From positions 1 to 22,954 of IMG/VR virus record IMGVR_UViG_3300004369_000156: DNA of 22,954 nt. One strand, 5' to 3'. The position numbers and the translations under genes are program-made. Origin of the DNA: a virus. Of this stretch, positions 1 to 18,732 are shown in pieces (the stretch's first letter is position 1; the number at the start of each line of letters is the position of its first letter). Below the pieces are notes generated by a model. That model had not been told where the DNA came from. It made no database searches and saw only the letters and a program-made list of their open reading frames with translations.

Positions 1-3000
1 GGGGTTCATGTAGACGTTGAACCGATCGACGACCTTGCCGTCTCGAACGCGAACGGCGCCGAGTTGAATCGGACGGTTCAGTGCGTCCGGCTCGTCGTCA
101 CTCGCGAATCCTGTTGTCTCATAGTCGAAGAAGACCATGTCAAGACCGCGGATAACGTCCGCTGCGTCTTCCCAGCTGTCGACTCCAGCGAGCATTTCCT
201 TGACGCTTCCAGTAAACGCGCCGGGCGAAGGCTTACGTGGCGGCTTTGGTCTGTGCAATGCAGGCTTGTCACCCTTAGGCGGGACAGTTCCGCCACGAGC
301 AACGTCGATGATCGTGCCCTCGTTCCACTCCTTGCGCTGCGACTCGTGACCCGGGAAGTACCCCTGCACGCTGACCTTGCCCTTAGGTGTTTCTTCGTCG
401 CGGAACACCTTTTCAATGACAAACGAGTCTTGGCCTGTGACGTCTCCAGGCAGCAGGTCCTGCGCCTCGTAGCCCATCGCTTCTGTCAAAGGCTCCGGCT
501 CTTGGAAAAGATCAGGATCGTCAGCGCCTTCTCGTACTCCAAGACGGTCAAGAATGTACTGACGACGAGACTTCAACTTACGCTTGATCGTCTCTGCTTC
601 GTCAGGATCTGTAATTACTCTATCGACAATATCGTCGATCTCCGAGGGGATCAGATCACGCAACGGCTTAGCGTATTCTCGTAGCTGATCGTCTGTCAAA
701 TCTCCGAAGAAAATTGACGCTTGATCTCCTTGACGTGGATCACGCATGGTGTCAATTTCTGTCGCCTCGTCACCAAACATCTCTCCCTTAGCGGCGCCAC
801 GAGCACGCCACATAAGAGCTCCACCTGGGTCGACGCGAACTGGATCACCGTTTTCGTCGGTGACAATGTTTGTCGAGCCGTCATAGAGGTAGCCTGTGAC
901 GTCGTAGTTGCCGAGCCACGCGTCAATGACAAATCCGCGTTGGATCTTTTCTACGTACTCTCGGTCGACAATTTCTCGCCGCCCTGGGCTAACTCGGTCA
1001 AACAAGTCGTCTGGCTGAGCTCCAGGCACAAGTGGAGAGACAATTCTTAAATCGCCTTCTCTGCTGCCAAACGCGACCTCTGCTGAATCTATTCCAAGCT
1101 CACGATAGAACAGGGACGCGAGTGCCTCGTTTTCCGCGTGTGACAGCGAGCGAGGGATCTTGACGTAGTACTCGCGGCCATCGGCGTCTCGATAAAAACC
1201 TCCAGGATTAGTTCCGGTGCCTTCACCGTACATCTTCCAGTCGTCGATCGAACCAACGTCTCGGACGCCTACGTCGACGCTTTCTGCATCTTCTCGAACC
1301 GCCCGCACCTGTACAACGAACTCAGCAGTACCGTTCTTACGTACTGAGACTACCTCGAACCTACCGCCACCTAGCACCTCGTCTTCTCCATCAAACCAAG
1401 AAAGGTTAGATATGTCTATGGACTTATCGATGTCTCCTGGCAAAGCTTCAAAGACCACTCTTGTTCCGTAACCCTTGTTCATGAACAAGGCTGACGCGAG
1501 ACTGCCGTCTGTGATGTCTGTCGTCGTCCACGAGCGAGAGTCCATATAGAACGTCGATCCCTCAGTCGTGTACGCGTCGAGACTTCTGTCTTCATTTTTA
1601 AGAGTAACAACTCTGTAGAGCGAAACCTCATTAGGGGCGCCTGCTGCGTGAATTAACCTGTAGAACGCCGCTCCTGTTGTGTTGGCGTCAAGATCGTCAT
1701 CACCGTCCATGATTCGCTGCCGCGAAAGCATGAACTCGCTGTAGCCACCGTGGGTCTCAATAATGGCGTAATACGTGTCCTCTGCAGCCATTCTTGCGTC
1801 CATCTCGGAGACTGGGCCATCAAAGTACACGAGGTCCTTGGACAGCTCTGTGACAATAGACTGTCTCCACGAGCTATAGCCAGCCTCCTCGAGATCGTCA
1901 GGAGTATCTCCGCCGTCGATCGACATAAGGACGCCCCACACGGCCTTAAATGCTTCCTGCTCTTCTGGTACTGGCGAAAACGCGTATTCCTTGACATCCG
2001 AGAAAAGATCGAAGAAAGTCTTGTCCTCGTCTGACCGAAGAGCACTCGCGATCTTCTTCAGCGTCTCGTTTCTCTCGTCATAGTCGGCAAGAAGAGTGCC
2101 GACGCGCGCAGTGCGAGTAAGTCTTTCAGGCTCTTGCTTGATGTCGTTTCGAAGAGCATCTTGCTCAAGCTGACTTATAGGCACCTGAGTGCTCGGACCG
2201 TCTTCTGGTCCGATAAGCATGTCCTGCTTGAACTGCTGTACCCTGTCGGTGTTTCGCTCTGGGCGATCAGGATTGTCTGCGTCGAGCGCTCGGTCGTAGA
2301 TACCGGCAAGAACCATGTCGCCGTCAACACCTGAGCGCTGGAGAGCGTCAAACAGCGCCTCAGCAGGTACCGACTCGTCTCCGTCGTCGAACGGCAACTG
2401 ACCCTTGCCAGTCGCGCGTTGACCGTCCGCACTAGGAAGAACGGCGTCGGCTAGAGCCTTCGCGAGTTCTGCCTGCGAGAACTTCGTGGAAAGTACCTCG
2501 GGATCGTCTGTGTAATCTCCGCTCTTTTCGTTCGTGCGACCCTTCGGCTGATACATCCCGTAGATGTCGGGCTTGTACGCACCTTCAGGAGTCTCGAACA
2601 TCGCGTCGAACTCAGCAAGAAGCATCTCGTCCATCTCGTCGATGTCGGCCTGGTCGATCTCGCCGACCTGCATCTTCTCAAGAATGAACGTTCTTTCCTC
2701 GCCGTCTGTGACGCTGTAGCCGACAACGTTTGTTGTGCCCGACTTGTTGTTCGTGTAGATGCGTTCTGGGACGAAGACTCGTTCCTTGTCGTTGTACATG
2801 AACGAGACCGCAGACCCGTTTTGGATCGCGTCCTCTACTGCTGTGCGCAACTCGAAGACGTCGTCACCACGTAGAGGCGCCGCCTCGACTGAACCCTCTG
2901 GCCGCTGTACGGGCTCTGGCTTAGCCTCCATCTTCTCGATGGTGTACGTGCGCTTCTCGCCTAGATCTTTGTCCATTCCGTAGACGTTCGTAGCACCTGT

Positions 3001-6000
3001 CTTGGCGTTCTGCCACACGCCTTCAGGAGTGATCGTCCGTTCTCTGCCGTTGTAGATGAACGAGATGTCCTCACCGTTGTCGATCGCGTCAGTGATCTGA
3101 GCGATTCTGTCTTCTGGAGTCCCACCAGTGATATCGCGAGGTGGGCGAGGACCTTCAGGCCCGCCTTCGGGAGGAGTAGGGCCGCCTTCGTCGCCTTCAT
3201 CAGTGTCGCCCATCATGAAGTCGGCGACGTACGACATAGCGTCGTCGCGTTCTTTAAGCGAAATCTCGTCGTTGTTGTACATTTCATCGAGAGCTTCCTC
3301 GACGTCGTCGTAGCCGATTCCGCGGTCTTCATCTTGCATTACATTAGAAAGACGCTTCATAAGCGCGTCACGCTTAGCAAGACTGTTTTCTAGGCCAAGT
3401 AGGTCTCTTTCGTAGATACCGTCTACTAGCGATTCTGTTTCATCGAAACCAAGACCTTCGTCGCCTGGCCCGCCTTCGGGAGGCGTCGGCCCGCCGTCGG
3501 GAGGAGTAGGGCCGCCTTCGGGAGGAGTGGGGCCGCCCGTCGTGAGACGCTCGTAGAGATCGTCCCATTCGGGATCTCCAGGTCCGTCTTGGAAACGCGC
3601 GAAAAGCGCTCCGTCTGTGTCTGGCCCGCCGAGGAACTCACGAGCCTCTTCGTCAGTAAGATTAGACTTGTCAAACGTGACGAGCATTCTGTACTCGTCG
3701 CTTAGACCTGGCCTGGAGCCTCCAGCCGCGTCGTATTGCGCCTGAAGCTCGGGCGTGTCTGCAACCTCGATGTATCCACCAAGTTTGTTGATGTTGCTGA
3801 TCTGCTCTTCAAATCCTTCTGGATCTTCGAACATGTCAGCAAGCGTGAAGCCGATCTGAACGCCGTCGCCTTTTTGCGTCGTGTTGCGACTGCTGATGTA
3901 CGCTGCGCCACCATCGTCATCACCACTCGCGTCGCGCACAGGACCGCGGCCGCCTTCGTCGAGTTCTCCGTTGTACCACTTTCCGAAGCGGTCATAGTCG
4001 GCTTCAGGTATGTCATACTCAACGACTGGCCATCCAGCAGGGCCGGACTCGTCGATCATCTTAGCTTGGCCACCCGGAAACAGTCTGTCAAACTCTGGCA
4101 GAATCTCGTCGAGGACCTCGTCGGGCTCTCTAGCGACGTCAGCCTCTACGCGTCCGCCTGGGCGCCCGTCCGGCAGCGTCGTGCTTGTCGGGTAGCCAAT
4201 ACCGTACCTGTCTTCGAACTCATCGCGTTGGGCCTCGCTGGGGCCTACGATCTCACCTGCTGGCGTGGGCACGGCTGCACGGTCGTTGATCCACTTATCA
4301 GCCTGCGCCTCGACGTCGGGATCGTTCGCGTCGAGAGTGATCGTGTCCTCGACAACCTCACCGTTGAAGACGCGCTCTGGCGCGTCGCCTTCGCGGGCTG
4401 GGCGAATCTTATCGATGATGTACTCACCCTTGGCGTCGCGACGGTTGAGCTCGATACGTGAGCCGTCGGGAAGTGTCCACGTCGACTTCTCGTACGTCGA
4501 GCCGGGGTCGGCATTGCCAGGGTTCAAAGTTTCAGCCGCGGTCTTGACTACTTCGGGGGTGACGCGTTCGCTTTCTGGTGTTTGCACGCGAGGCAGGAAG
4601 TCAAAGCCAAGCTTTTTGTTTGCAACTTCTGTGGGAGGAGACGCTGGGGGAGATCCATCTCTGTTGTTCCACGGGCCGACGTATTTCCACGAGCCCTGGC
4701 CTGGCCGAGGCGGGTATCCTAGCGGCTTCCACTCCCAGTTGTCAGGATCGTTCAACCTCTTGTCGATGATGTCTTCGCGATCCTTACGGCGTTCGCCGCC
4801 AGCGCGGTCAGCCTCAGCCTTCTGAAGAACCTTGACGTACTCGGGCTGGTCGACGTCGATCGCCTTTTGAACGTCGCCCCAGTCATCGAGCTTCTCGGCG
4901 CCCTTGACCGTCGAGTCGTCGAGACCGCGGCGCAGCTCGAGCGACTGACGATCGCCGTCACTATCCAACGTTTCGACCGCGGCGTACGCCGTCTCCTGGT
5001 TCACCCACTCGACGCGTGACGGCTTGAGCACGTCACCGTCGTGCGTCGCGAGAACGTTCTTTGTCCAACCGCCCGGCGCGTCGGCTCGTGTCGGGCGAAT
5101 GTCCTTGAAGTCGACGAAGACGTCGTCCGTACCGACCGACACTTCTCTATCTGGAAGTCCCTTACGCGCTTTTTCGGGGAGGATAGCCTTCGCTGCCTCA
5201 CCCTTGCTGGCCTTCGTCGAGTAGACACCGTCTGGAAGATAGCGGCTGCCCTTGATCTCGACCTCAACGCCGTCGGGGTCGTCGGCGGGAAGACCGGCGA
5301 CGCGTCCTGAGACCTTTCTGAAGACACCGTCCGGCATGCGAAGATTGAAGAGCCAACCGCCGCCCATCTCGGCGAAGCGACCCTTGCGATCACGGCGCTG
5401 GAGTTTCGCGCGCAGCGAACGTGCGGCGCTCGAGTTTCCACCGAGGCCGAGGCCGAACGCCGCGGTCAGAGGGGCGTCGTCGATGCGCAGATGCGTCGGC
5501 ACCGAGCCCGCTGGGGCGACTGATAGACGAATAAATGCGTGCTCACGCTCCATTGAGCCAGGAAACGCGGAGAAAGCCGCCGCAACGAGCGGGCGATACT
5601 CGTCGGCTACCGTTGGGTCAGCGGCAAGCCAGCGCGCTTTTTCAGCGCGCAGCGATGCGCTGTTCATCGAGTGGCTACGAGTAGACAGTGGGTGACCGAT
5701 CGCGAGAAGATCGGAGTACTTCGTCGTGCCCGTTGTCTGTCTGTTGTGAAGAGCAAGAGAGATGAACAAATCGACAGCACGAAGTGCGGAGAAAACTCGC
5801 GCTTGTGGTTCATATGACGCCGTTGTAGCAAGACTTCTGTTCGCTACCGTAATTGCAGAACTGAGTGACACTCTGCGCTCAGCGGGTACAGTTGAGTTCG
5901 CGCGATGCACCTTTGCTTCGATCTCAGTGCGTAGCTTCGCCGAATATTGACGAATAAACTGCGACGCCGGAATCTTCTTCTTTGACGCCTTCTTCACTAT

Positions 6001-6012
6001 TTTATTGTTCAC
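1..6012 (-). CDS. Giant multidomain polyvalent virion-type protein (WYL x2, ADP-ribosyltransferase, kinase-like, DnaQ exonuclease), 3' end missing
   Basis: One reading frame is open from GTG at 6012 to base 1 without a stop: 2004 codons, C-terminus beyond the window. Visible order: basic N-terminus (KKASKKK) and helical region to about 190; a conserved-looking block opening RDRKGRFAEMGGG near 205; Pro-Gly repeats (GGPTPPE type) near 825-850 and 937-952; two WYL-like units at about 963-1028 and 1050-1115 (pattern A-I-x-N-G...F-x-Y-N...E-R...P-E...R-T-F/Y-x-x-E-K-M); an ADP-ribosyltransferase at about 1455-1575 with R1467, S1494-W-T-T-T and E1543-D-E1545; a HipA/PI3K-like kinase-type domain at about 1590-1800 with K1618, N1702-x-D1704 and D1728-P-G-G; a Pro/Lys linker; then FFDYETTG with D1963 and E1965, the ExoI motif of DnaQ-family exonucleases. 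It starts 4 bp after the Dps gene in the head operon. Inference: an injected virion effector or head protein. The ExoII and ExoIII motifs lie off the edge. The GTG start has only a weak GGGG ribosome site. Confidence 0.88.
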   Translation of the reverse strand, partial: MNNKIVKKASKKKIPASQFIRQYSAKLRTEIEAKVHRANSTVPAERRVSLSSAITVANRSLATTASYEPQARVFSALRAVDLFISLALHNRQTTGTTKYSDLLAIGHPLSTRSHSMNSASLRAEKARWLAADPTVADEYRPLVAAAFSAFPGSMEREHAFIRLSVAPAGSVPTHLRIDDAPLTAAFGLGLGGNSSAARSLRAKLQRRDRKGRFAEMGGGWLFNLRMPDGVFRKVSGRVAGLPADDPDGVEVEIKGSRYLPDGVYSTKASKGEAAKAILPEKARKGLPDREVSVGTDDVFVDFKDIRPTRADAPGGWTKNVLATHDGDVLKPSRVEWVNQETAYAAVETLDSDGDRQSLELRRGLDDSTVKGAEKLDDWGDVQKAIDVDQPEYVKVLQKAEADRAGGERRKDREDIIDKRLNDPDNWEWKPLGYPPRPGQGSWKYVGPWNNRDGSPPASPPTEVANKKLGFDFLPRVQTPESERVTPEVVKTAAETLNPGNADPGSTYEKSTWTLPDGSRIELNRRDAKGEYIIDKIRPAREGDAPERVFNGEVVEDTITLDANDPDVEAQADKWINDRAAVPTPAGEIVGPSEAQRDEFEDRYGIGYPTSTTLPDGRPGGRVEADVAREPDEVLDEILPEFDRLFPGGQAKMIDESGPAGWPVVEYDIPEADYDRFGKWYNGELDEGGRGPVRDASGDDDGGAAYISSRNTTQKGDGVQIGFTLADMFEDPEGFEEQISNINKLGGYIEVADTPELQAQYDAAGGSRPGLSDEYRMLVTFDKSNLTDEEAREFLGGPDTDGALFARFQDGPGDPEWDDLYERLTTGGPTPPEGGPTPPDGGPTPPEGGPGDEGLGFDETESLVDGIYERDLLGLENSLAKRDALMKRLSNVMQDEDRGIGYDDVEEALDEMYNNDEISLKERDDAMSYVADFMMGDTDEGDEGGPTPPEGGPEGPRPPRDITGGTPEDRIAQITDAIDNGEDISFIYNGRERTITPEGVWQNAKTGATNVYGMDKDLGEKRTYTIEKMEAKPEPVQRPEGSVEAAPLRGDDVFELRTAVEDAIQNGSAVSFMYNDKERVFVPERIYTNNKSGTTNVVGYSVTDGEERTFILEKMQVGEIDQADIDEMDEMLLAEFDAMFETPEGAYKPDIYGMYQPKGRTNEKSGDYTDDPEVLSTKFSQAELAKALADAVLPSADGQRATGKGQLPFDDGDESVPAEALFDALQRSGVDGDMVLAGIYDRALDADNPDRPERNTDRVQQFKQDMLIGPEDGPSTQVPISQLEQDALRNDIKQEPERLTRTARVGTLLADYDERNETLKKIASALRSDEDKTFFDLFSDVKEYAFSPVPEEQEAFKAVWGVLMSIDGGDTPDDLEEAGYSSWRQSIVTELSKDLVYFDGPVSEMDARMAAEDTYYAIIETHGGYSEFMLSRQRIMDGDDDLDANTTGAAFYRLIHAAGAPNEVSLYRVVTLKNEDRSLDAYTTEGSTFYMDSRSWTTTDITDGSLASALFMNKGYGTRVVFEALPGDIDKSIDISNLSWFDGEDEVLGGGRFEVVSVRKNGTAEFVVQVRAVREDAESVDVGVRDVGSIDDWKMYGEGTGTNPGGFYRDADGREYYVKIPRSLSHAENEALASLFYRELGIDSAEVAFGSREGDLRIVSPLVPGAQPDDLFDRVSPGRREIVDREYVEKIQRGFVIDAWLGNYDVTGYLYDGSTNIVTDENGDPVRVDPGGALMWRARGAAKGEMFGDEATEIDTMRDPRQGDQASIFFGDLTDDQLREYAKPLRDLIPSEIDDIVDRVITDPDEAETIKRKLKSRRQYILDRLGVREGADDPDLFQEPEPLTEAMGYEAQDLLPGDVTGQDSFVIEKVFRDEETPKGKVSVQGYFPGHESQRKEWNEGTIIDVARGGTVPPKGDKPALHRPKPPRKPSPGAFTGSVKEMLAGVDSWEDAADVIRGLDMVFFDYETTGFASDDEPDALNRPIQLGAVRVRDGKVVDRFNVYMNP

Positions 6013-6016
6013 TGTA

Positions 6017-7246
6017 TTAGCCCCGGTCTGCTCGTGGTAACAGGTCCGCGTCTCTACTGTCGTGATGAAGTGTCGCTAGTTCAAATGCTCTATCAAAAGG
6101 ATCTTCTTGATCGGTTACTGCTCTCTTCCATGCTGCTCGAAGAGACGGCATGATCTCATAGCCGAGATCTGAAAACTCCGCCAACGCGAGAAGTGCGTCC
6201 TCGGTTGATTCGTAGTCTTCAAATGGGCTAAGAGTAACTGTCAACTCGGCCTCGAGAAGATCGGCGTCTGCTACAATTCCAGAAGCTGAAATCGACTCTG
6301 CTGATGCTTTCTTCTTCGAAGACTTCGGGTGCCCGGCAGGCAGCAGATCGTTGTCCTGCGTGTAGTTGCTATTTGCCGGCCGTCCTGATTTAAGAAGCTT
6401 CAGATACGCGTTCACCCTAGCCATCGCCCACTGATCTCTTGTCTTGCCTGGGCGATGAGAACTTGAGAACGCTCCTGCACCACGGCGGTAGACTGCCTTG
6501 AGCTGCGCCATGGTCGTCTTTCTGCCTGCCGGCGCGTTCTCGTTGTGCTCCTTCATCTTGTTGCGAAGAGCGGTCTCTGTCTTATCAGAAAACTTAATCT
6601 TCTTTGAATTCTTTGCCTTTGCTGATCCAGGCTTGTTCGTCTTTGAACCGTAGATACGATCCTTCTTAGGCGCGGGCTTTGAGCCCGCGGCGTACATAGG
6701 CTGACCTTCAACGACGTACGTCGCTTCTACTGGAAGATCAGCTTTAGTTTTTCCCGGCAGCATCGGACGCATGTTCTTGTCCATCCCGATCGTTGTACCG
6801 AGTTGCCAGCGCCACTTCTCGTGAGCATCGATTCTTCCGGCGATAAAGTCAGCGACACCTTGTTGATTGCACTCGTTTGCGCATTCAAATGTTTTGTATA
6901 GAACTGAGATAACAGCATTGTTTGCGGCGTACAGTTCTGCTGACATTGACATCGGATCGCAGTCTGGATCACTCATCGCAACATCACAGGAGGAGACAAC
7001 GTGGCCGAGATTCATTGGAGCGTTGTACCCAAGTTTGCGGATGTTTTCAGCGATAGGGTCGATCGAGTCGAACAGATCTTCATAGATGTCGGAAAAGAAA
7101 TTATGAAACTGAGTAAACTCCGGTCCCTTGACGTTCCAGTGAAATGCATGAGCCATGAAGTACATCGTAAAGACGTTAGAAAACGTCCTATGTAGACACG
7201 CCGCGATATCAGTAGTTGAATCGCCCATATCGTAACTTATTTTCAT
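6017..7246 (-). CDS. Dps/ferritin-like protein fused to a phage C-terminal domain
   Basis: 409 aa. Residues 1-155 are a Dps-type four-helix domain. HAFHWNVKGPEF carries H36, and H48, D63 and E67 follow at the 12/15/4 spacing of the Dps intersubunit ferroxidase site, so iron oxidation may be retained. Dps proteins bind iron and protect DNA. The protein is more than twice the usual Dps length. Residues 185-220 are Lys-rich. Residues 225-305 hold a block (AVYRRGAGAF, HRPGKTRDQWAMARVNA, YTQDNDLLPAGHP) that I remember from phage structural-region proteins but cannot name. The last 90 residues are acidic and helical. It begins with an ATGA overlap on the portal gene and ends 4 bp before the giant gene, so the three are translationally linked. 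Inference: a virion component, perhaps condensing or protecting packaged DNA. The Dps fold is a confident call, the role is not. Confidence 0.87.
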   Translation of the reverse strand: MKISYDMGDSTTDIAACLHRTFSNVFTMYFMAHAFHWNVKGPEFTQFHNFFSDIYEDLFDSIDPIAENIRKLGYNAPMNLGHVVSSCDVAMSDPDCDPMSMSAELYAANNAVISVLYKTFECANECNQQGVADFIAGRIDAHEKWRWQLGTTIGMDKNMRPMLPGKTKADLPVEATYVVEGQPMYAAGSKPAPKKDRIYGSKTNKPGSAKAKNSKKIKFSDKTETALRNKMKEHNENAPAGRKTTMAQLKAVYRRGAGAFSSSHRPGKTRDQWAMARVNAYLKLLKSGRPANSNYTQDNDLLPAGHPKSSKKKASAESISASGIVADADLLEAELTVTLSPFEDYESTEDALLALAEFSDLGYEIMPSLRAAWKRAVTDQEDPFDRAFELATLHHDSRDADLLPRADRG

Positions 7247-8928
7247 TGCTGCTCGGTCTCCTGCTGCTGTTCTGGCGCCGGTGCTCCCGGTGCCTGCCCT
7301 TGGTCAGTCTGTTGTCCTCCCTGTAGAAGCTGCTGAAGCTCAGGAGGCATCGGTGCAACGCTCTGTGCCTGCTGCGCTGCTCGAGCCGCGCTGATAACCT
7401 CGGGGGCTACAGCACCTAGCATCGCCTCTGTCAACTCTGGCGTGATCATTCCCTTGTCGAAGACAAGGCGCAGAGCGATCTCGTCTGCGGTAGGCGCGTC
7501 ATTATCGCTGAATCCATGAGCGCGGCGCCACGTACCGTACGAGACAGCCATCTTGTCGAAACCGGAGTCAGCATCTGCCGCGCGGTCGTTACGGGTGGAG
7601 ACCTGGCTGGGGTCAAACCAAACAACAACCTTCTCTACCTCGGTCGGATCATAGCCGTTCGCGATGAGATACGGACGTAGGTAGACAACTGTCAGCGCGT
7701 CGGCAATCAAAAGCATGAGTGGTTCGATGTGCGCCTTGTACAGCGACTCGTCGATCTGAAGAGCGTTGCTATACTTTACGTTGGCAAGACCGGTGACGAT
7801 ATCCTTCGGAACGTCAAGACCTTGAAGAATTCTCTCGAGAACGCGATCGGCGCGCTGTGCGAGTGCAGGGTCGAACGAACGCTCGAACTTGAACTGCTTA
7901 ATGCGGTCACCAAGTTCAGCAGGACCGCGAATGATCAACGGTACGACGGCACTTGCCGAGTCTTCATCGCGGATCGGAGTCGTCATCGCGTCGATGAGTT
8001 GATCCTCGAACTCGTCGGCTGACTCGTCGGGGTTGAACGGGGGACTAAGATCAGTCTCGTCATCGTACGGATAGTCGGGATCAGGAGACGCCGAAACGCT
8101 AAGACCGTCAGGAAGATATAGCGCGCCGGCATTGAGGCGTGAACGTGCTGTTGCACGGAACGTTCTATTGAGAAGAAGCAACTCGGCGCACAGATCAAGC
8201 AAGCCACGGAGAGACGAATCAGCCTCTTCAGAGAATCTCGGGTGCGCGCGCCAGATGCGACCAACAAACGCGTTAGTTGGCAGCGAAATCATCTTGCTCA
8301 TTCCGCCGCTACCCTGCGCTAGCAGTTCGCGGCGAGGAACGATACCGTAGTTGTTGCGCTGGTCAACCTGAACCTCGTCGACGGAGCGAATGTCCCATGA
8401 CTCTGGAATCCCGGTGCCTTTGCGCTCCGGCATTTGAACGAGATAGCACTCGCCAGCAACACTTAGGTTGAGAGCTGCGTCGCGAAGAAGACCGGCTTGA
8501 CCGCCGTAGGCAGAGTCAAGGCGAGTCAACGCTCTTTCAGCGGCGGCGGCAAGATTCTTGTCGATCGTGCCACTTAGTCGAACAGATACTGGAGTCTCTG
8601 CTGGATTGTCGACGCAGGCGGCGTACAGACGAATTCTGGAGACAACAGATGCAACAAGGTTGAATGCGTACTTGACCTCTCCGATGGCGTCGTAATACTC
8701 CCAGGCCTCTGCCTGCCATGAGCTTGACGCGGTGTGACGCCGCGTGCGAAACTGCTCGGCCTCACCTTTGTCGTGAAGTTTGATCTGCGTTGCCGCAGCC
8801 GTCATGGTACGAGGTGTGGAGTATGAAGCTGACGTCGCGAAGCTAACACCAAAGGGCAACTCTGGCACAGCGGGTAGATTTGAGCCTCTACGCGAAGGTG
8901 TTGATGATTCTCGGCGAAATACGCCCAC
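7243..8928 (-). CDS. Portal protein
   Basis: 561 aa, a normal size for portals of siphophages. The portal dodecamer forms the DNA channel at one head vertex and docks the terminase. It shows typical actinophage portal features: a disordered basic N-terminus, then EAWEYYDAIGEVKYAFNLVA near residue 75, a conserved AALNLSVAGECYLVQ stretch near 150-165, IGRIWR-like text (VGRIWRAHPRFSEEADSS) near 220, and RIKQFKFERSFDPALAQRADRVLERILQ before GLDVPKDIVTGLANVKYSNALQIDESLYK, the stem-helix region. The C-terminus is Gln/Pro-rich. The GTG start at 8928 follows a good GAGGAG ribosome site 6 nt upstream. The gene overlaps the downstream Dps gene by ATGA. The operon order terminase, portal, head-associated giant protein supports the call. 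Confidence 0.93.
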   Translation of the reverse strand: MGVFRRESSTPSRRGSNLPAVPELPFGVSFATSASYSTPRTMTAAATQIKLHDKGEAEQFRTRRHTASSSWQAEAWEYYDAIGEVKYAFNLVASVVSRIRLYAACVDNPAETPVSVRLSGTIDKNLAAAAERALTRLDSAYGGQAGLLRDAALNLSVAGECYLVQMPERKGTGIPESWDIRSVDEVQVDQRNNYGIVPRRELLAQGSGGMSKMISLPTNAFVGRIWRAHPRFSEEADSSLRGLLDLCAELLLLNRTFRATARSRLNAGALYLPDGLSVSASPDPDYPYDDETDLSPPFNPDESADEFEDQLIDAMTTPIRDEDSASAVVPLIIRGPAELGDRIKQFKFERSFDPALAQRADRVLERILQGLDVPKDIVTGLANVKYSNALQIDESLYKAHIEPLMLLIADALTVVYLRPYLIANGYDPTEVEKVVVWFDPSQVSTRNDRAADADSGFDKMAVSYGTWRRAHGFSDNDAPTADEIALRLVFDKGMITPELTEAMLGAVAPEVISAARAAQQAQSVAPMPPELQQLLQGGQQTDQGQAPGAPAPEQQQETEQQ

Positions 8929-9813: not shown

Positions 9814-10394
9814 GAGTTGGGCTTCACTCTTCTCTCCATGGCCTTGTACGTGACACCGGCAAAATGCGCGAGCTCGCGTATCGAGACTCCCTGATCATAT
9901 AACGAGCAGCACAGTTGAGTCAGCTCTTCGTTTGCGAGTGCGTATGCTCCGTTTGGATTCGCGCGAGCGCGATAGCGCCTCGCAAGCGGAGCGAGCTCCG
10001 CGATGCGCTGTGAGTCGTCGGGCGAGACGCTCGGCCGTGCCGGGTTGAACATTCGATGTGCTCGGCGACGGGAGTGCGCCGAGGTGGCGGGTACTGAGTT
10101 CATTTTTTCCGCCGTCCCTATTGTTGATGAGGAGGCGGCGGAAGAAAGGGAAGAAGGGGGAGAAAGAGAGGGGAGGGGAGGAGAGGGAAGTGAGTGTGTG
10201 AGTGAGAGGGGAGCTGTCTGTGTCCAGGCGCGTACGGTTGAGCGGGAACGCGGTGGCGACAGGGCCTCGCCGATTGATGCAAGTGACCAGCCCGCGTCGT
10301 ACAACTGACGGGCACGGGCACGCTGGGCGGTGGCGGACAGCCCGCACAGGAGAGCAATCTCATCGCTCGGAAGTGTCATCTTCTCTCTCGCCAT
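9810..10394 (-). CDS. Double helix-turn-helix protein, possible small terminase subunit
   Basis: 194 aa with two HTH-like units: residues about 20-60 (ARQLYDAGWSLASIGEAL) and about 155-190 (EELTQLCCSLYDQGVSIRELAHFAG). They are joined by a low-complexity Ser/Pro/Leu linker (about 60-95) encoded by a nearly pure polypurine tract on the plus strand. Small terminases bind packaging sites through HTH domains, and this gene lies between the large terminase and portal genes, so a TerS role is plausible. It is however downstream of the large terminase rather than upstream, and it could instead be a regulator. A TGA-TACAAT extended -10 element sits exactly 6 nt before the ATG, suggesting a leaderless transcript that starts the portal operon. 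Confidence 0.78.
   Translation of the reverse strand: MAREKMTLPSDEIALLCGLSATAQRARARQLYDAGWSLASIGEALSPPRSRSTVRAWTQTAPLSLTHSLPSPPLPSLSPPSSLSSAASSSTIGTAEKMNSVPATSAHSRRRAHRMFNPARPSVSPDDSQRIAELAPLARRYRARANPNGAYALANEELTQLCCSLYDQGVSIRELAHFAGVTYKAMERRVKPNS
10118..10215 (+). repeat. Homopurine tract inside the double-HTH gene
   Basis: About 95 bases of the plus strand are almost entirely A and G, broken mainly by a few C near the left end and T near the right. They include several GGGG and GGGGG runs. The tract encodes the Ser/Pro-rich linker on the minus strand. It could form triplex or G-rich structures. A packaging-site role is only a possibility. Confidence 0.7.
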
Positions 10395-10400
10395 GTGCGC

Positions 10401-10409
10401 ATTGTATCA
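10401..10409 (-). promoter_or_regulatory. Extended -10 promoter of the double-HTH gene (leaderless)
   Basis: On the minus strand the sequence reads TGATACAAT, an extended -10 (TGn plus TACAAT). The last T is separated from the ATG at 10394 by 6 nt, so transcription would begin at or next to the start codon. No ribosome site is visible. The arrangement matches that of the large-terminase gene. Confidence 0.5.
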
Positions 10410-10790
10410 TCGCCGCGGCGGAAAAAATGAAACATTTGTACATTAATGTCTACTCTACGAAAAATTCCTTGTGGCAAGAGAGGAGGACTTCGACGTGTAC
10501 ATCATTTCTGCTTTGTACATTAACCTTAGTGACTTTGGCGAAAGAGAGTTCGGCGTTAGGTTTTCGGGCTACGCTACTGTGTCTCCAGGGCTTTTGGCCT
10601 GAGCGGCCGCTGAGATGCCTCTGGCGCCTTTGCGTGCTTCCAGGCATGGTTTTGTGCCATGGCCTGTTTGTAGGCACGTGGTGGATCTAAGACGTGAATG
10701 AGAGGTTCTAAAGACCTAATGGCCATGGTCAGTCAATGGGTGGGGCCCCCTGGCCTAGGCCAAGTTTCCAGGGTCTGTAGTCTACAGTGG

Positions 10791-10821
10791 CCTGAGTGAC
10801 CTCTGAGTGGCCTCTGAGTGG
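10791..10821 (+). repeat. Short tandem repeat, CCTCTGAGTGG type
   Basis: CCTGAGTGA is followed by two CCTCTGAGTGG units in tandem. It belongs to the same repeat-rich non-coding region but has a different unit. Confidence 0.75.
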
Positions 10822-10930
10822 TAGTTCAGCCTGCCAGTTGTCGACTGGGCTGAAAATGGGACCAAAATGGACAACTGGGTCGAAAATGGCCAGAAATGAT
10901 GGCCAATGGCCTCCAATGGCTGACTAGAGG

Positions 10931-10960
10931 CCAGAAATGGCCAGAAATGGCCAGAAATGG
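10931..10960 (+). repeat. Perfect tandem repeat, CCAGAAATGG x3
   Basis: Three consecutive exact copies of the 10-mer CCAGAAATGG, with degenerate copies on both sides. This is the core of the ATGG-rich region. Confidence 0.95.
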
Positions 10961-11233
10961 CTACAAGTGGTCTACATGGTCGAGAATGGCTAGAAATGGT
11001 GGCCACTGGCTGGCCATGGTCATCATCGATCGAGAATGGCGACCATGGGGCCTCGAGCAGTCACGTCGGATGGTCAATGGTGACCACTGGTTCAGTGGAC
11101 GGCGGCCATCCATCGGATCAGGCCCGTCGATTGCGACCATTTCATCGGCTTTGGAATCCCATACCGCATACCGCATGGAAAACCCCTGATCAGAAGGAAG
11201 TTTGCCGCAAAGTGGTACGACGGTCCGCAGACC

Positions 11234-11888: not shown

Positions 11889-12377
11889 TCAGTCGAGCAC
11901 GCGGACGTTGGGATCGTCGGCGAAGAGTGACCGCAAGGTGTCAGCGGTCATCAGTCCTTCGCCGGCGAGACCCTCAGCAGTCTGGTACGCGGCGACCGCG
12001 GCCTTGGTCAGGTCGCCGTACCAGCCGGTCTTGTCGGTGTACGCATCGCGGTATCCGAGTTCGCTGAGTCGACGCTGAACGTGATAGACGGACATCGACT
12101 TGCGCGCGAAGGTGTTCTTGTAGACGCAGGCCGACAGACGTACGTCGTCGACGTCAGCTCCGCTGACAGCCTGACCTTTCGGCGATGCCGGTCGCTTCTT
12201 GGCAGCAGGCTTCGGTGCTTCCTGAACTACCGCACGAGTCGGAGCGGGTTCTGCCTCGGCCGGCGAGTCAGACTTCGCTGGCGCGGATTCCACGGGTGCC
12301 TCGTCAGATACGGGCGCGTCGACGATGTTTTCGGGTTCAGTTGCCATGTTCAACATCGTACCAGGTCGATGGGTCAT
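11889..12377 (-). CDS. Peptidoglycan-binding-like (PG_binding_1) domain protein
   Basis: The C-terminal half, from MSVYHVQRRLSELGYRDAYT through GWYGDLTKAAVAAYQ to LMTADTLRSLF, matches the PG_binding_1 fold that anchors many endolysins and wall hydrolases to peptidoglycan. The N-terminal half is a Pro/Ala/Glu-rich linker (APVSDEAPVESAPAKSDSPAE) with a Lys-rich PKPAAKKRPASPK segment. No catalytic domain is present. ATG at 12377 overlaps the large-terminase stop as ATGA, the coupling used throughout this genome; ATG at 12356 or 12347 is also possible, and none has a clear ribosome site. Inference: a wall-binding accessory, structural factor or degenerate lysis protein. Its position directly after the terminase is unusual for a lysin. 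Confidence 0.75.
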   Translation of the reverse strand: MTHRPGTMLNMATEPENIVDAPVSDEAPVESAPAKSDSPAEAEPAPTRAVVQEAPKPAAKKRPASPKGQAVSGADVDDVRLSACVYKNTFARKSMSVYHVQRRLSELGYRDAYTDKTGWYGDLTKAAVAAYQTAEGLAGEGLMTADTLRSLFADDPNVRVLD

Positions 12378-13786
12378 CGAGGTTTGAACACGCGTGCGCC
12401 GCCGCCTGCGCCACCGCGAAACGCCGGCAGGCGTCGAGCCGCGACGGACTTCGCCGTGATCTGCCCACCGACGAATCCAGGCGGAGGTTTGATCAGCAGA
12501 GCAGTCAGTGCGTGAACGAGCGCGTCGACACGGTCCGGTGACTTGCCTTCGCCGGGAACCCACGAGATCATCTGTGACTCGAGTTCGGCGAGATAGTTGA
12601 TGTGATGCACGCGGTTTTGTTCGTATGCGAGCGTGATGGGCTCTGCCCGCAAAGCCTTTCCGTGCTTCGAGTGAACCTCGAGAACTTTGATGTTCGGGTC
12701 GATTGTTCGGATCGCGTTCGTGACGAGCGCTCCACCTTGATTGACTTCAGCAACCACCGGGCACGAGTACTTACGCGCCATTGCAACGACCGCGTTCGCC
12801 CACATCTCTGGCGAACCGTGTATTGTCGCGTCCTCGAGAACCCAAGCATTACGCTTGTATAGATCACGTTCGCCTGTTGACGCGCAAACGACGATGCCGC
12901 ATTCGTCTCTTGGGTTCTCAGCAACTGACGGGTCGACACCGACCACTCGCAGAGGCGCGCCAACTGGGAAGACGCGTTCACGGCTTCGTTCGATCAAATC
13001 TTCGTTCCACAACGCACCTTCGGCGTCGTCAAGCATCTCGCCGTAGAGTTCCTGTGCCGCAAGACGTGTTCCGGCGTAGACTCCAGTAATGGCGTCGAGA
13101 TACGTGCTCGACAGGTTTCCGGCGTTGTCGAGAGTTGATCCGCGTGACACGAGGACGCGGCCGGTCTTCTCGGCTTCACTGAGAAGCGAACGAAGAAGCG
13201 GAACGCGTTTCGGAGTTGTAGTAGCGATGATCTGCGGCGAGCGGCCAAGTCGACAGGCAACGCGAAGGTTGTCCCACGAAGTCATGCCTGCGGCGTCAGG
13301 AGTCTGTCTCCAAGCGGCTGCCTCGTCTGCCCATGCGTAGTGAAACTGCGGACCGCGTAAACCGTCTGGTTCGTCGGCCGTAAAGCACGTCGCTGTGTTT
13401 CCATTCGGCCACGTCAGTCTCCGCTTCGACGGTTCGTATAGCGGGCGCTCCGACGGAGGCGACACACTGATGATGCCGGACTCGCCCTCGACGATGACGT
13501 CACGAACGTCGGCCGCAGTACGTGCAACCAGTGCGAATCGCAGTTGACCTTGCGTTGTGTCTTTCGCTTTCTCGCGAATCCACTCGGCTGCGGCTCTTGT
13601 CTTGCCCGCGCCTCTACCGGCCATATACAACCAGATTGACCAGTCGTCTCCAGGCGGAGGCATCTGTTCTGGCCGCGACCATGCTTTCCAGTCCCAGACG
13701 AGCGCGTCCATATCAAGACCGCTCAATAGTGCTGCGCGTTCGTGCTCAGGCAGCAGCGCGATCTTTTCCATCATGCTTTTGCCCAT
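12374..13786 (-). CDS. terL: Terminase large subunit
   Basis: 470 aa, full-length ATPase plus nuclease. Walker A is GRGAGKT (57-63), the Walker B acidic pair is D154-E155 in YAWADEAAAW, and the coupling motif is ATTTPK (188-193). The RNase H-like nuclease shows D285 in VVGVDPS, E348 in VVAEVNQGG and D421 in DRVDALVHAL. It powers DNA packaging into the prohead through the portal and cuts the concatemer. A TGG-TATTAT extended -10 ends exactly 6 nt before the ATG and there is no ribosome site, so the message is probably leaderless. The stop overlaps the next gene as ATGA. Confidence 0.96.
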   Translation of the reverse strand: MGKSMMEKIALLPEHERAALLSGLDMDALVWDWKAWSRPEQMPPPGDDWSIWLYMAGRGAGKTRAAAEWIREKAKDTTQGQLRFALVARTAADVRDVIVEGESGIISVSPPSERPLYEPSKRRLTWPNGNTATCFTADEPDGLRGPQFHYAWADEAAAWRQTPDAAGMTSWDNLRVACRLGRSPQIIATTTPKRVPLLRSLLSEAEKTGRVLVSRGSTLDNAGNLSSTYLDAITGVYAGTRLAAQELYGEMLDDAEGALWNEDLIERSRERVFPVGAPLRVVGVDPSVAENPRDECGIVVCASTGERDLYKRNAWVLEDATIHGSPEMWANAVVAMARKYSCPVVAEVNQGGALVTNAIRTIDPNIKVLEVHSKHGKALRAEPITLAYEQNRVHHINYLAELESQMISWVPGEGKSPDRVDALVHALTALLIKPPPGFVGGQITAKSVAARRLPAFRGGAGGGARVFKPR

Positions 13787-16628: not shown

Positions 16629-16889
16629 TTACACTGCACGAGTGTAGTTGTCTACTTTTTTGGCTTCTTTTTTCTTTTCACGCAAAATCTTCGCGCGCTG
16701 GTTAGTTGTTGTCCCTGCCCACACGCCGACTTCTTGATGTTGTAAAGCGTGTGACAAGCACCGCACGTGAAGATCGCAATTGTCACAGATCTTTCTCGCT
16801 TTTCTCACAGACGTCGCGTGAGTTTCGTCAAAAAACATGTCGAGCTTTCCAGAGCACGGCGAGTCTTTCATCCAAGATATATCTTTCAT
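16629..16889 (-). CDS. WhiB-family Fe-S regulator, canonical
   Basis: 86 aa. C12, C35, C38 and C44 follow the canonical WhiB spacing C-x22-C-x2-C-x5-C (SPCSGK and ICDNCDLHVRC), with the GVWAGT turn at 55-60 and a Lys-rich C-terminus. It would bind a [4Fe-4S] cluster and partner with the host housekeeping sigma factor. ATG at 16889 follows the recurrent AACGACGAAAGGA leader. It lies directly after the proteasome-like gene in a long operon. Compare the atypical WhiB at 14.2-14.6 kb. Confidence 0.92.
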   Translation of the reverse strand: MKDISWMKDSPCSGKLDMFFDETHATSVRKARKICDNCDLHVRCLSHALQHQEVGVWAGTTTNQRAKILREKKKEAKKVDNYTRAV

Positions 16890-16904: not shown

Positions 16905-17498
16905 TTATACAGGCGAAACTTGTTGCATCAAATGAACCGTGCCCCCTGACGATGAGTCTAAGCTGATAGCGATAGTGATCGCTTCTCTGATCATTTTCTT
17001 TGCTTTGTCGATTTGCACAATCGACGCTGTAGAGTCTCCGAGCATCGCGTACAACGCGCCCATAGCGAAGTCGCCGCCTGTGCCTGCCGCATACACTCCG
17101 CTCGCATCTCGAATCCACGAGTAGTCTTCGTCGATCTCGTAGATGACTCCATTGATCGCAGCAAGAATGACCGAGCCATGAGTCGCTCTTTCTTTGGTCT
17201 CGCGAGCCGCATAACCGTGGTCTTCAAAACACGACCGAAGTTCGGGGACGAACTTGCTCGTGATGAATCTGTCAAGTCGCGCGCCGACTAAGTTTCCAGG
17301 CTTTGGCGGAGTAAACGCGTGAGCAAGAATGTTGATCGCTCGTAGATCTCCTGCCGCACCGAGAAGATACGGACCGTTCTTCGCTACCTTCGATGATCCT
17401 TGCCCAAGAATGAACGTTCTTCCATTGTCGTCGGAAACGAGCGAGTCAAATCCAACGATCGCCCAGCCATCGCCTTGAACCGCAAGAACCGTAGTCAC
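16905..17498 (-). CDS. Proteasome/HslV-type Ntn hydrolase
   Basis: 197 aa. After the initiator (GTG) come TT, and AIVGFDSLVSD places D18 exactly 16 residues after T2, as Asp17 follows Thr1 in HslV and proteasome beta subunits. SSKVAK supplies a lysine at 37 near the Lys33 position, and GPYLLGAAGD resembles the glycine-rich strand of the family. Removal of Met would expose Thr as nucleophile. A later segment (GVYAAGTGGDFAMGALYAML) resembles the conserved G-S-G-x-x-A-x-A-A region. No partner ATPase or regulator is encoded nearby, so it would act alone, use host unfoldases, or serve a different Ntn activity. No ribosome site is visible before the GTG; TAATAT lies 6 nt upstream. Confidence 0.87.
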   Translation of the reverse strand: MTTVLAVQGDGWAIVGFDSLVSDDNGRTFILGQGSSKVAKNGPYLLGAAGDLRAINILAHAFTPPKPGNLVGARLDRFITSKFVPELRSCFEDHGYAARETKERATHGSVILAAINGVIYEIDEDYSWIRDASGVYAAGTGGDFAMGALYAMLGDSTASIVQIDKAKKMIREAITIAISLDSSSGGTVHLMQQVSPV

Positions 17499-18069: not shown

Positions 18070-18732
18070 TTACGGTGCAACCTTGTCGTTCTTGAGCCAC
18101 GCGTCGTACGTAACGGGCATCGCTCGTTCAAAGTACTTTTCAACCTCGAGAGCGTACTTTCGGATCTCGAGTTGAGCAGTCTCGTGAGTCCGCAAACTCA
18201 AGAAGTTCATCAACGCGCGGGCGTTGACAGTCCAGTAGAACTGTGTAAGCATCGAGACCGGAAGCACGTTTCTCGCGACTTCCTTCGCGACTCCACGCGA
18301 CAGAAGATACGTATAGGCTTCGTAAGCTTCTTGATTGACGTTTGACATTATTTCAATCGTCTCGTTCGCAAGTGAGTCGTCGACTTGCTCGAAGCGATAC
18401 GCTCCAGGCTTACCAACCTGCGTCCGCACGTCTTCTGCCGGTGGAACGTAGAACTCTTCCGGAACCTCAGAATAGCGAGCGGAAAACTCGTTGAACGAGC
18501 CAATACGATGTCGAAACCATTCACGAGCGACAAAGATCGGGCATTTGATGTGAAACCGAAACGCATTGTGTTCGAACGGCGTTCCATGACGCTCCCGCAT
18601 CAGAAAGTTTATAAGACCTTTGTCAACTTCATCAACTTCAGTCTTTTTCTTCGCGAAAGAAACTCGAGCGGCGTTTACGACCGAAAGGTCGTCAGCCATG
18701 GAGTTGTCTAGAAGTACGAAACCCTCGTTCAC
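18070..18732 (-). CDS. thyX: Flavin-dependent thymidylate synthase
   Basis: 220 aa, full length. The ThyX signature is present as RHRIGSFNEFSARYS (74-88). Other family blocks are HGTPFEH (49-55), ARNVLPVS (153-160) and the C-terminal NARALMNFLSLR (170-181). The enzyme makes dTMP from dUMP using FAD, methylenetetrahydrofolate and NADPH, providing thymidine for phage DNA synthesis and independent of host ThyA. GTG at 18732 overlaps the preceding stop (GTGA), so it is translationally coupled. Confidence 0.97.
   Translation of the reverse strand: MNEGFVLLDNSMADDLSVVNAARVSFAKKKTEVDEVDKGLINFLMRERHGTPFEHNAFRFHIKCPIFVAREWFRHRIGSFNEFSARYSEVPEEFYVPPAEDVRTQVGKPGAYRFEQVDDSLANETIEIMSNVNQEAYEAYTYLLSRGVAKEVARNVLPVSMLTQFYWTVNARALMNFLSLRTHETAQLEIRKYALEVEKYFERAMPVTYDAWLKNDKVAP

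Follow-up and report, generated by a model that had tools for sequence, protein, structure and literature searches.

What is encoded by a reading frame of 2004 codons that stands close to the portal gene of a virus and is still open where the sequence ends? The frame lies in the IMG/VR record IMGVR_UViG_3300004369_000156, a metagenomic record classed as linear and possibly a fragment, which we analyzed in its complete length of 22,954 bases (hereafter, the window). A preliminary description, made from the letters of the window, had read the product as a polyvalent protein, perhaps delivered by the virion for host takeover or anti-defence, with an ADP-ribosyltransferase (ART), a HipA/PI3K-like kinase, a WYL-like pair, and a DnaQ-like exonuclease. 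Judged from its sequence, the giant protein combines several enzyme domains in one chain, with the catalytic motifs intact where these are known, and predicted structures of the ART and kinase domains point the same way. The protein belongs to the known polyvalent proteins.

Reading frame and its continuation

The giant gene occupies positions 1..6012 on the minus strand, beginning with a GTG codon at 6012, four bases past the stop codon of a Dps-like gene, and continuing past base 1. Its 2004 codons contained no stop; the remaining five frames over the same interval contained 31 to 120 stops each, and among 300 simulated first-order Markov sequences of equal length, open runs reached at most 378 codons. 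A scan with the last 175 residues encoded in the window identified IMG/VR contig 3300004369_000014 (63,116 bp), one end of which is identical to window bases 1–99, over exactly 99 bases; this was the sole match to the giant gene, and the other two ends of the two contigs did not overlap each other. Exact end overlaps of this kind are a typical residue of broken assembly graphs, and a switch of strain at the 99-base junction is conceivable. The frame joined at this overlap stops after 3726 codons and is followed on the contig by homologues of the genes that come after the giant gene in relatives. In other words, the frame leaves the window as first described, and the sequence to the left of base 1 is now available up to the stop codon. 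The catalytic residues named in the preliminary description (R1467, S1494, E1543-x-E1545, K1618, N1702-x-D1704, D1728-P-G-G, and D1963-x-E1965) were all found at these positions. The helicase and the C-terminal domain described below are encoded beyond the window and were therefore invisible to that description.

Domain organization

Domain ranges in the joined chain were obtained with profiles built in this analysis from members of the giant family; the window protein was in the training sets of the N-terminal, WYL, exonuclease, ART, and kinase profiles, so its own scores are inflated. From the N to the C terminus, the chain comprises a conserved N-terminal region (residues 7–333), WYL-like repeats (946–1120), an ART core (1440–1567), a kinase (1567–1844), an exonuclease (1950–2151), a UvrD helicase (2271–2880), and a C-terminal domain (3247–3708). 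No NUDIX domain or second ART was detected in the 3726 residues by the local profiles.

The ART domain (residues 1440–1567; window 1312..1695, minus strand) was modeled with AlphaFold2 from 28 sequences as part of residues 1119–1599, with a predicted local distance difference test score (pLDDT) of 80.9. In a structural comparison with VIA, the best match was the ADP-ribosyltransferase toxin 6dre (Z 9.2), and only 2 of 996 chains reached Z ≥8; we take all 50 VIA rows to be ADP-ribosyltransferases or, for XopAI (2 rows), ART-fold proteins, not every title stating this. Foldseek agreed, with ART-fold proteins at the top of both lists. R1467, E1543, and E1545 were conserved in 28 of 28 sequences and S1494 in 23; the third position of the Ser-x-Ser/Thr motif was Ser or Thr in 27 of 28. 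The curated ART model PF03496 did not match the window protein at an E-value (E) of 1; the extra ART domains of other giants do match it. The Z values are modest, yet fold family and catalytic residues concur, and the domain, with its predicted ART fold and R-S-E residues, appears to be the ART first proposed.

The kinase (residues 1586–1830; window 523..1257, minus strand) gave a model with a pLDDT of 93.5 and a predicted template modeling score of 0.91 from a 59-sequence alignment. Helicobacter pylori CtkA ranked first in VIA-align (Z 16.4 over 222 residues at 3.5 Å), followed by CotH (Z 14.5) and then by LepB, actin-fragmin kinase, and HipA at 11.5 to 11.3 (HipA 11.3); the absence of a family from the VIA lists does not exclude it. 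CtkA ranked second in Foldseek, where the plant and animal kinases that crowded the list had root mean square deviations of about 15 Å and were not used. K1618, E1629, D1697, N1702, and D1728 were conserved in all 59 rows, some of which are near-identical; E1629 and D1697, the catalytic-loop Asp, are additions to the residues listed earlier. We take the Lys, the Glu, the Asp-x4-Asn, and the metal Asp to be counterparts of the catalytic residues of CtkA, CotH, and HipA. Together with the predicted fold, they place the domain among HipA/CtkA/CotH-like kinases, as the preliminary description had suggested, although identity to CtkA, Bacillus CotH kinase, and HipA is only about 14% and Pfam kinase models, including HipA_C and HipA_2, did not match the window protein at E 1.

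The window contains only the start of the DEDDh exonuclease (residues 1958–2004; 1..141, minus strand), which extends to about residue 2151 in the joined gene. Pfam RNase_T scored below its cut-off on this fragment (E 0.0028) and above it in relatives; in relative L010, the corresponding stretch leads into a full RNase_T domain (2.9e-12) and then a UvrD helicase (9.2e-15). Beyond the window, the ExoII and ExoIII motifs that a DnaQ-like enzyme should have follow D1963/E1965, with QYVPFD at 2055 and WHRADADAE at 2131 (H2132/D2137), completing the DEDDh set. The helicase motifs ALAGTGKTST (2296), DEAQDIN (2486), TAHRSKGLEW (2801), and YVAVTRAKK (2843) are those of UvrD/SF1A enzymes, and Pfam UvrD was found in relatives. 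The exonuclease motifs are conserved in 21 related sequences and the helicase motifs in 13.

At the N terminus, residues ~22–120 (5653..5949, minus strand) form a DUF5824-like domain; both hhalign (probability 96.8, E 2.6e-10) and blastp (E 2e-4) indicate its homology to the DUF5824 part of the Dps-like gene product encoded just upstream. Residues 179–277 (5182..5478, minus strand) form a module with the core RRDRKGRFAEMGG, defined by alignment and genome searches and here called GRF, which we propose to be a head-targeting or processing module. The variable residues 340–945, which hold a Gly/Pro-rich linker encoded by a 21-bp tandem repeat (3467..3537, minus strand; repeat search and translation), are probably flexible. 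The WYL-like pair is the weakest assignment. Repeat 1 (residues 946–1034; 2911..3177, minus strand) was found with a local hidden Markov model (independent E 1.5e-39) and repeat 2 (residues 1030–1120; 2653..2925, minus strand) with a local model and Pfam WYL (E 0.0026), both local models having been trained on sets that include the window protein itself. The Pfam score in the window protein, 18.2 bits, falls below the 21.8-bit cut-off, whereas the closest relative scores 25.8 bits (1.1e-5).

The C-terminal domain had no Pfam match in P0004 or P0005 (limit 0.1) or in G003 (limit 0.01); two tails had no match in PHROGs, and that of a third (E 0.019) falls outside the domain. Its best PDB sequence match (E 0.017) was rejected as weak, and reading its LxST..R/GGADYV motifs as ART-like is a guess. 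A CRISPR_Cas2 match (E 0.051) and PDB sequence matches with E 0.017 to 0.74 were rejected likewise.

Family of giant proteins and wider distribution of the kinase

For comparison, we assembled 37 complete frames of at least 1500 amino acids (aa), from which duplicates and two near-identical partners had been removed by hand; close pairs such as L031/L040 and L068/L070 were kept. Because 35 of the 37 were found through the kinase, its presence in 37 of 37 reflects selection. The conserved N- and C-terminal domains occur together in 34 (the exceptions being L058, L066, and L082), and complete relatives with both span 1,932 to 7,669 residues. Between the ends, the cargo varies and includes ARTs, NUDIX domains, and a second kinase; the longest relative, G008 (7669 aa), contains a single ART of the window type alongside three of the PF03496 type, as well as two kinases and two NUDIX domains. 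An ART was detected in 28 of the 37, with a core at most 400 residues upstream of a kinase in 27; an initial ART profile that extended into the kinase had scored kinase-only stretches, and its replacement by a core profile reduced the count from 34 to 28. The closest relative shares 54% identity over residues 961–2871, and full-length relatives share the domain order.

Ratios of nonsynonymous to synonymous substitution in relatives (five pairs tried) were 0.15–0.19 for the whole frame and 0.04–0.12 for the kinase, indicating purifying selection. Between the near-identical frames L084 and L085 (757–10011), 40 of 96 differences fell into three 300-base bins corresponding to codons 1701–2000, which encode the kinase, a pattern such as cassette exchange would leave. 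All of the 11 giants G001–G011 have the exonuclease directly after the first kinase, and 10 have the UvrD helicase (not G005). Across the wider family, the exonuclease-helicase pair is not fixed: 16 complete relatives match the exonuclease profile, and only nine of these have a full UvrD helicase; searches with the local profiles revealed no helicase in G014, L058, L064, L079, L084, and L088, where the exonuclease occupies a different place in the chain.

Because the ends are conserved while the cargo changes, the sequences suggest a chassis. Tentatively, and as something possible but short of probable, this chassis would serve protein delivery: a DUF5824-like/GRF head-targeting unit and a C-terminal domain would frame freely exchanged enzymes (ARTs, HipA-like kinase, NUDIX, exonuclease, and helicase) in chains of ~1,900–7,700 residues, an arsenal would be loaded per particle, and the ART-kinase pair would be a unit for the two-step modification of host targets. 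The pair also occurs without the chassis, in phage contig L066, in gp117 of Pseudomonas phage Dolphis, and in bacterial relatives (13 of 43 with a PF03496 ART).

Kinase relatives are encoded in 334 of 386 pattern matches on viral contigs (the kinase scan used the best 80 of the 334) and in 60 of 85 pattern matches in bacterial genomes. Among the latter, 43 proteins were scanned, 17 having been dropped as longer than 1600 or shorter than 400 aa. Pfam detected ADPrib_exo_Tox (PF03496) in 13 of these, MuF in 8, NUDIX in 6, minor capsid protein 2 in 3, the ART model PF01129 in 3, and HipA_2 and HipA_C in 1 each; these are counts per domain and not of co-occurrence. Two proteins of the Pseudomonas syringae group (L125:5167–7314 and L151:5650–7317) carry the kinase with regions that by eye are ART-like and NUDIX-like, resembling the partners of the kinase in the phage giants; neither region was matched by the local profiles for ART and NUDIX.

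Gene neighborhood and the GRF module

The gene order in the window is portal, Dps-like gene, giant gene. The portal protein (7243..8928, minus strand) matches phrog_776 (E 8.5e-106) and is 76% identical to the portal of Actinomycetia phage DSL-LC01; the large terminase subunit (12374..13786, minus strand) provides a head operon context and shares 83% identity with the terminase annotated in DSL-LC01. Because the portal is closest to that of DSL-LC01, then to those of Microbacterium, Arthrobacter, and Gordonia phages, and because of the terminase identity, the host is probably an actinobacterium; DSL-LC01 is a predicted actinobacteriophage according to the accessible text of PMC10611076. The intervening gene (6017..7246, minus strand) encodes a Dps-like ferritin domain fused to DUF5824 (Pfam Ferritin 8.4e-17, DUF5824 1.3e-8; PDB matches to the Dps family, best 1.9e-18). 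A portal-sized and a Dps-like frame also precede the giant in L095, L097, L099, L100/101, and L102/103, the Dps homology being established by blast in the four relatives tested and by eye in L100/101.

On the joined contig, the next genes are homologues of those located between the giant and the capsid in DSL-LC01. One of these frames, of 1474 aa, has halves that correspond to two different DSL-LC01 genes, both with the annotation capsid maturation protease, and it contains the GRF module. A GRF search of 12 records matched nine, at 19 places. Seven lie in three complete genomes (DSL-LC01, three; Pumpernickel, two; Racecar, two), all of them downstream of the portal by at most 15 kb; in both genomes with an annotated capsid, they precede the major capsid gene. 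The further 12 are in six contigs. A GRF-like motif, HPRGADGR[WF]I, occurs near the N terminus of the kinase proteins that the Gordonia phages GodonK (gp67) and Forza (gp78) encode directly after the portal. In another actinophage group, Burro gp27 (>4400 aa) was judged to be virion-associated from a band of ~250 kDa, assigned in the accessible text of PMC7302621 to “gp27 or a processed part of it”; the 26 records matched at E 1e-5 include neither Burro nor cluster EK phages.

Because the GRF places lie near the portal and a giant protein in another actinophage group was judged virion-associated, we regard delivery with the phage DNA as the best reading. The term “virion-delivered” finds support in the gene context: the giant gene stands between the portal and capsid-side genes, the GRF module is common to that interval in three complete genomes, and bacterial kinase relatives are fused to MuF (8 of 43) or minor capsid protein 2 (3 of 43). 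The delivery itself stays an interpretation of this context.

Elsewhere in the window, 16905–17498 (minus strand) encodes a 57% homologue of a DSL-LC01 gene annotated as an HslV-type protease subunit, 18070–18732 (minus strand) a ThyX-type thymidylate synthase (PDB match E 7.8e-55), and 16629–16889 (minus strand) a WhiB-like regulator with 44% identity over 63 residues to an annotated DSL-LC01 gene. The GC skew was +0.219 at 10001–11000 and -0.125 to +0.055 in the remaining 1-kb windows.

Proposed role and alternatives

The giant protein is probably a polyvalent effector of a tailed actinobacterial phage, packaged and injected with the DNA. It would be made late, together with the portal and capsid proteins; its N-terminal module would take it into the head, possibly with cutting by the maturation protease, and it would exit the particle along with the DNA. 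The ART and the kinase would modify proteins of the new host within the first minutes, much as T4 Alt and T7 kinase modify host proteins early in infection. The WYL-like repeats may serve as a sensor of a nucleotide or nucleic acid, and the exonuclease and helicase may together act on nucleic-acid ends, either of host DNA or RNA or in clearing and protecting the incoming genome.

Several observations weigh against this reading. The two metagenomic contigs were joined on the strength of 99 identical bases, the WYL scores are below threshold in the window protein, and 9 of the 37 complete relatives have no detectable ART. The GRF module is not universal, since GodonK, Forza, and Dolphis, all of which bear the kinase, gave no match to its profile; nor is it always clustered as in the complete genomes, its three places in contig G015 (153,711 bp) being about 100 kb apart (13,289; 113,339; 121,474). 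DUF5824 occurs in 7 of the 12 records and in none of the isolates Pumpernickel, Racecar, GodonK, Forza, and Dolphis.

The chain might instead be a precursor polyprotein that the capsid maturation protease cuts during head maturation, so that separate enzymes are packaged and injected; the delivery logic would be the same, and the active forms would be fragments. The long variable Gly/Pro-rich stretch between the N terminus and the enzymes fits such cutting, as do the GRF module in a DSL-LC01 frame annotated as capsid maturation protease and the words “a processed part” used of Burro gp27, and we hold this reading to be possible, if on balance doubtful; the presence of both end domains in the same chain in 34 of the 37 complete relatives argues against it but is uninformative on later cutting. 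We judge it unlikely that the protein is a head-assembly or DNA-packaging factor that stays in the producing cell, where the exonuclease-helicase would trim packaged DNA and the ART and kinase would modify head proteins. Its position in the head operon would suit this role, and its helicase is homologous to UvrD-type helicases that other phages encode as ordinary genes; however, L077, L031, and L040 lack exonuclease and helicase by the local profiles, and relatives differ widely in how many ART, NUDIX, and kinase domains they have and of which kind, which fits host-directed weapons rather than assembly enzymes. It is very improbable that the protein is a polymorphic toxin used in competition between lysogens, with an immune producer, as in the model for MuF toxins: MuF, kinase, and ART do share a single frame in phage contig L066, and MuF occurs in the bacterial relatives counted above, but MuF (PF04233) had no match at E 1 in residues 1–2004. 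An artefact or decaying gene, through a chimeric contig or a frameshift, would be conceivable for a metagenomic, possibly fragmentary record but can practically be dismissed, being already contradicted by independent contigs with full-length relatives of the same domain order, by the 54% identity of the closest relative, and by purifying selection in relatives.

Comparison with known systems and significance

In the accessible text of Iyer et al. 2017 (PMC5512222), the polyvalent proteins that phages and conjugative elements encode include ARTs, kinases of one group, and, on a plasmid, a 12,242-aa protein that contains a UvrD helicase; like the giant, these proteins combine several effector domains in a very long chain and are encoded among portal and packaging genes. 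The designation “polyvalent protein” thus fits the published class, with at least two unrelated effector domains per chain, portal and terminase genes in the window, and capsid-side genes on the joined contig. According to the same text, the 2017 kinase group has lost its C-terminal subdomain and occurs mainly in Verrucomicrobia-Chlamydia and Bacteroidetes (pro)phages. Unlike that group, the kinase of the giant has a complete HipA/CtkA-like fold in the model, with C-lobe helices to residue 244 and an alignment with CtkA spanning 5–248; this difference concerns one optional domain, not the class. The giant also differs from the 2017 proteins in its constant frame of a DUF5824/GRF N terminus and a C-terminal domain. 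The term HipA is absent from the accessible text of PMC5512222. MuF toxins likewise have ARTs joined to head proteins and a proposed delivery with the DNA (Jamet et al. 2017, accessible text of PMC5576092, in which the word kinase is absent); unlike them, the part of the giant encoded in the window has no MuF domain.

Two proteins of actinophages resemble the giant more closely. The 3289-aa protein of DSL-LC01 (WJZ48510.1), annotated only as hypothetical, is encoded shortly after the portal, has the N-terminal, WYL-like, ART, kinase, and C-terminal domains, and is 45% identical to the giant over residues 1095–1826; in contrast to the giant, it matched neither the exonuclease nor the helicase profile built here, and no RNase_T was found in the whole DSL-LC01 genome. 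The gp78 protein of the cultured Arthrobacter phage Racecar (2709 aa), annotated as a DNA helicase, follows the portal directly and has an N-terminal GRF module, and its UvrD helicase is 41–42% identical to those of giants G003 and G002; unlike the giant, it gave no match to the local ART and kinase profiles, and it has, by eye, a C-terminal HEFGH zincin-like motif. The last residues of gp78 (L110:2380–10509) show a weak PHROG match to a head maturation protease (E 1.8e-4). In Racecar and Pumpernickel, RNase_T scored above cut-off in a separate small frame far from the portal.

In the open-licence literature searched, we found no description of the kinase or the architecture of the giant and no paper using the word DUF5824. 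As far as these searches show, the HipA/CtkA-like kinase in the polyvalent set, the order ART-kinase-exonuclease-helicase, and the frame of DUF5824/GRF and C-terminal domain are new.

Chains of this family are encoded on dozens of IMG/VR phage contigs, next to the portal in those inspected, and the related proteins that cultured actinophages encode at this place bear the annotation hypothetical or helicase. Should the N-terminal module indeed direct proteins into the head, it would offer a simple test of effector loading and a natural protein-delivery tag. A HipA/CtkA-type kinase, usually beside an ART, joins the enzymes that phages may inject, which renders the early takeover of actinobacterial hosts testable.

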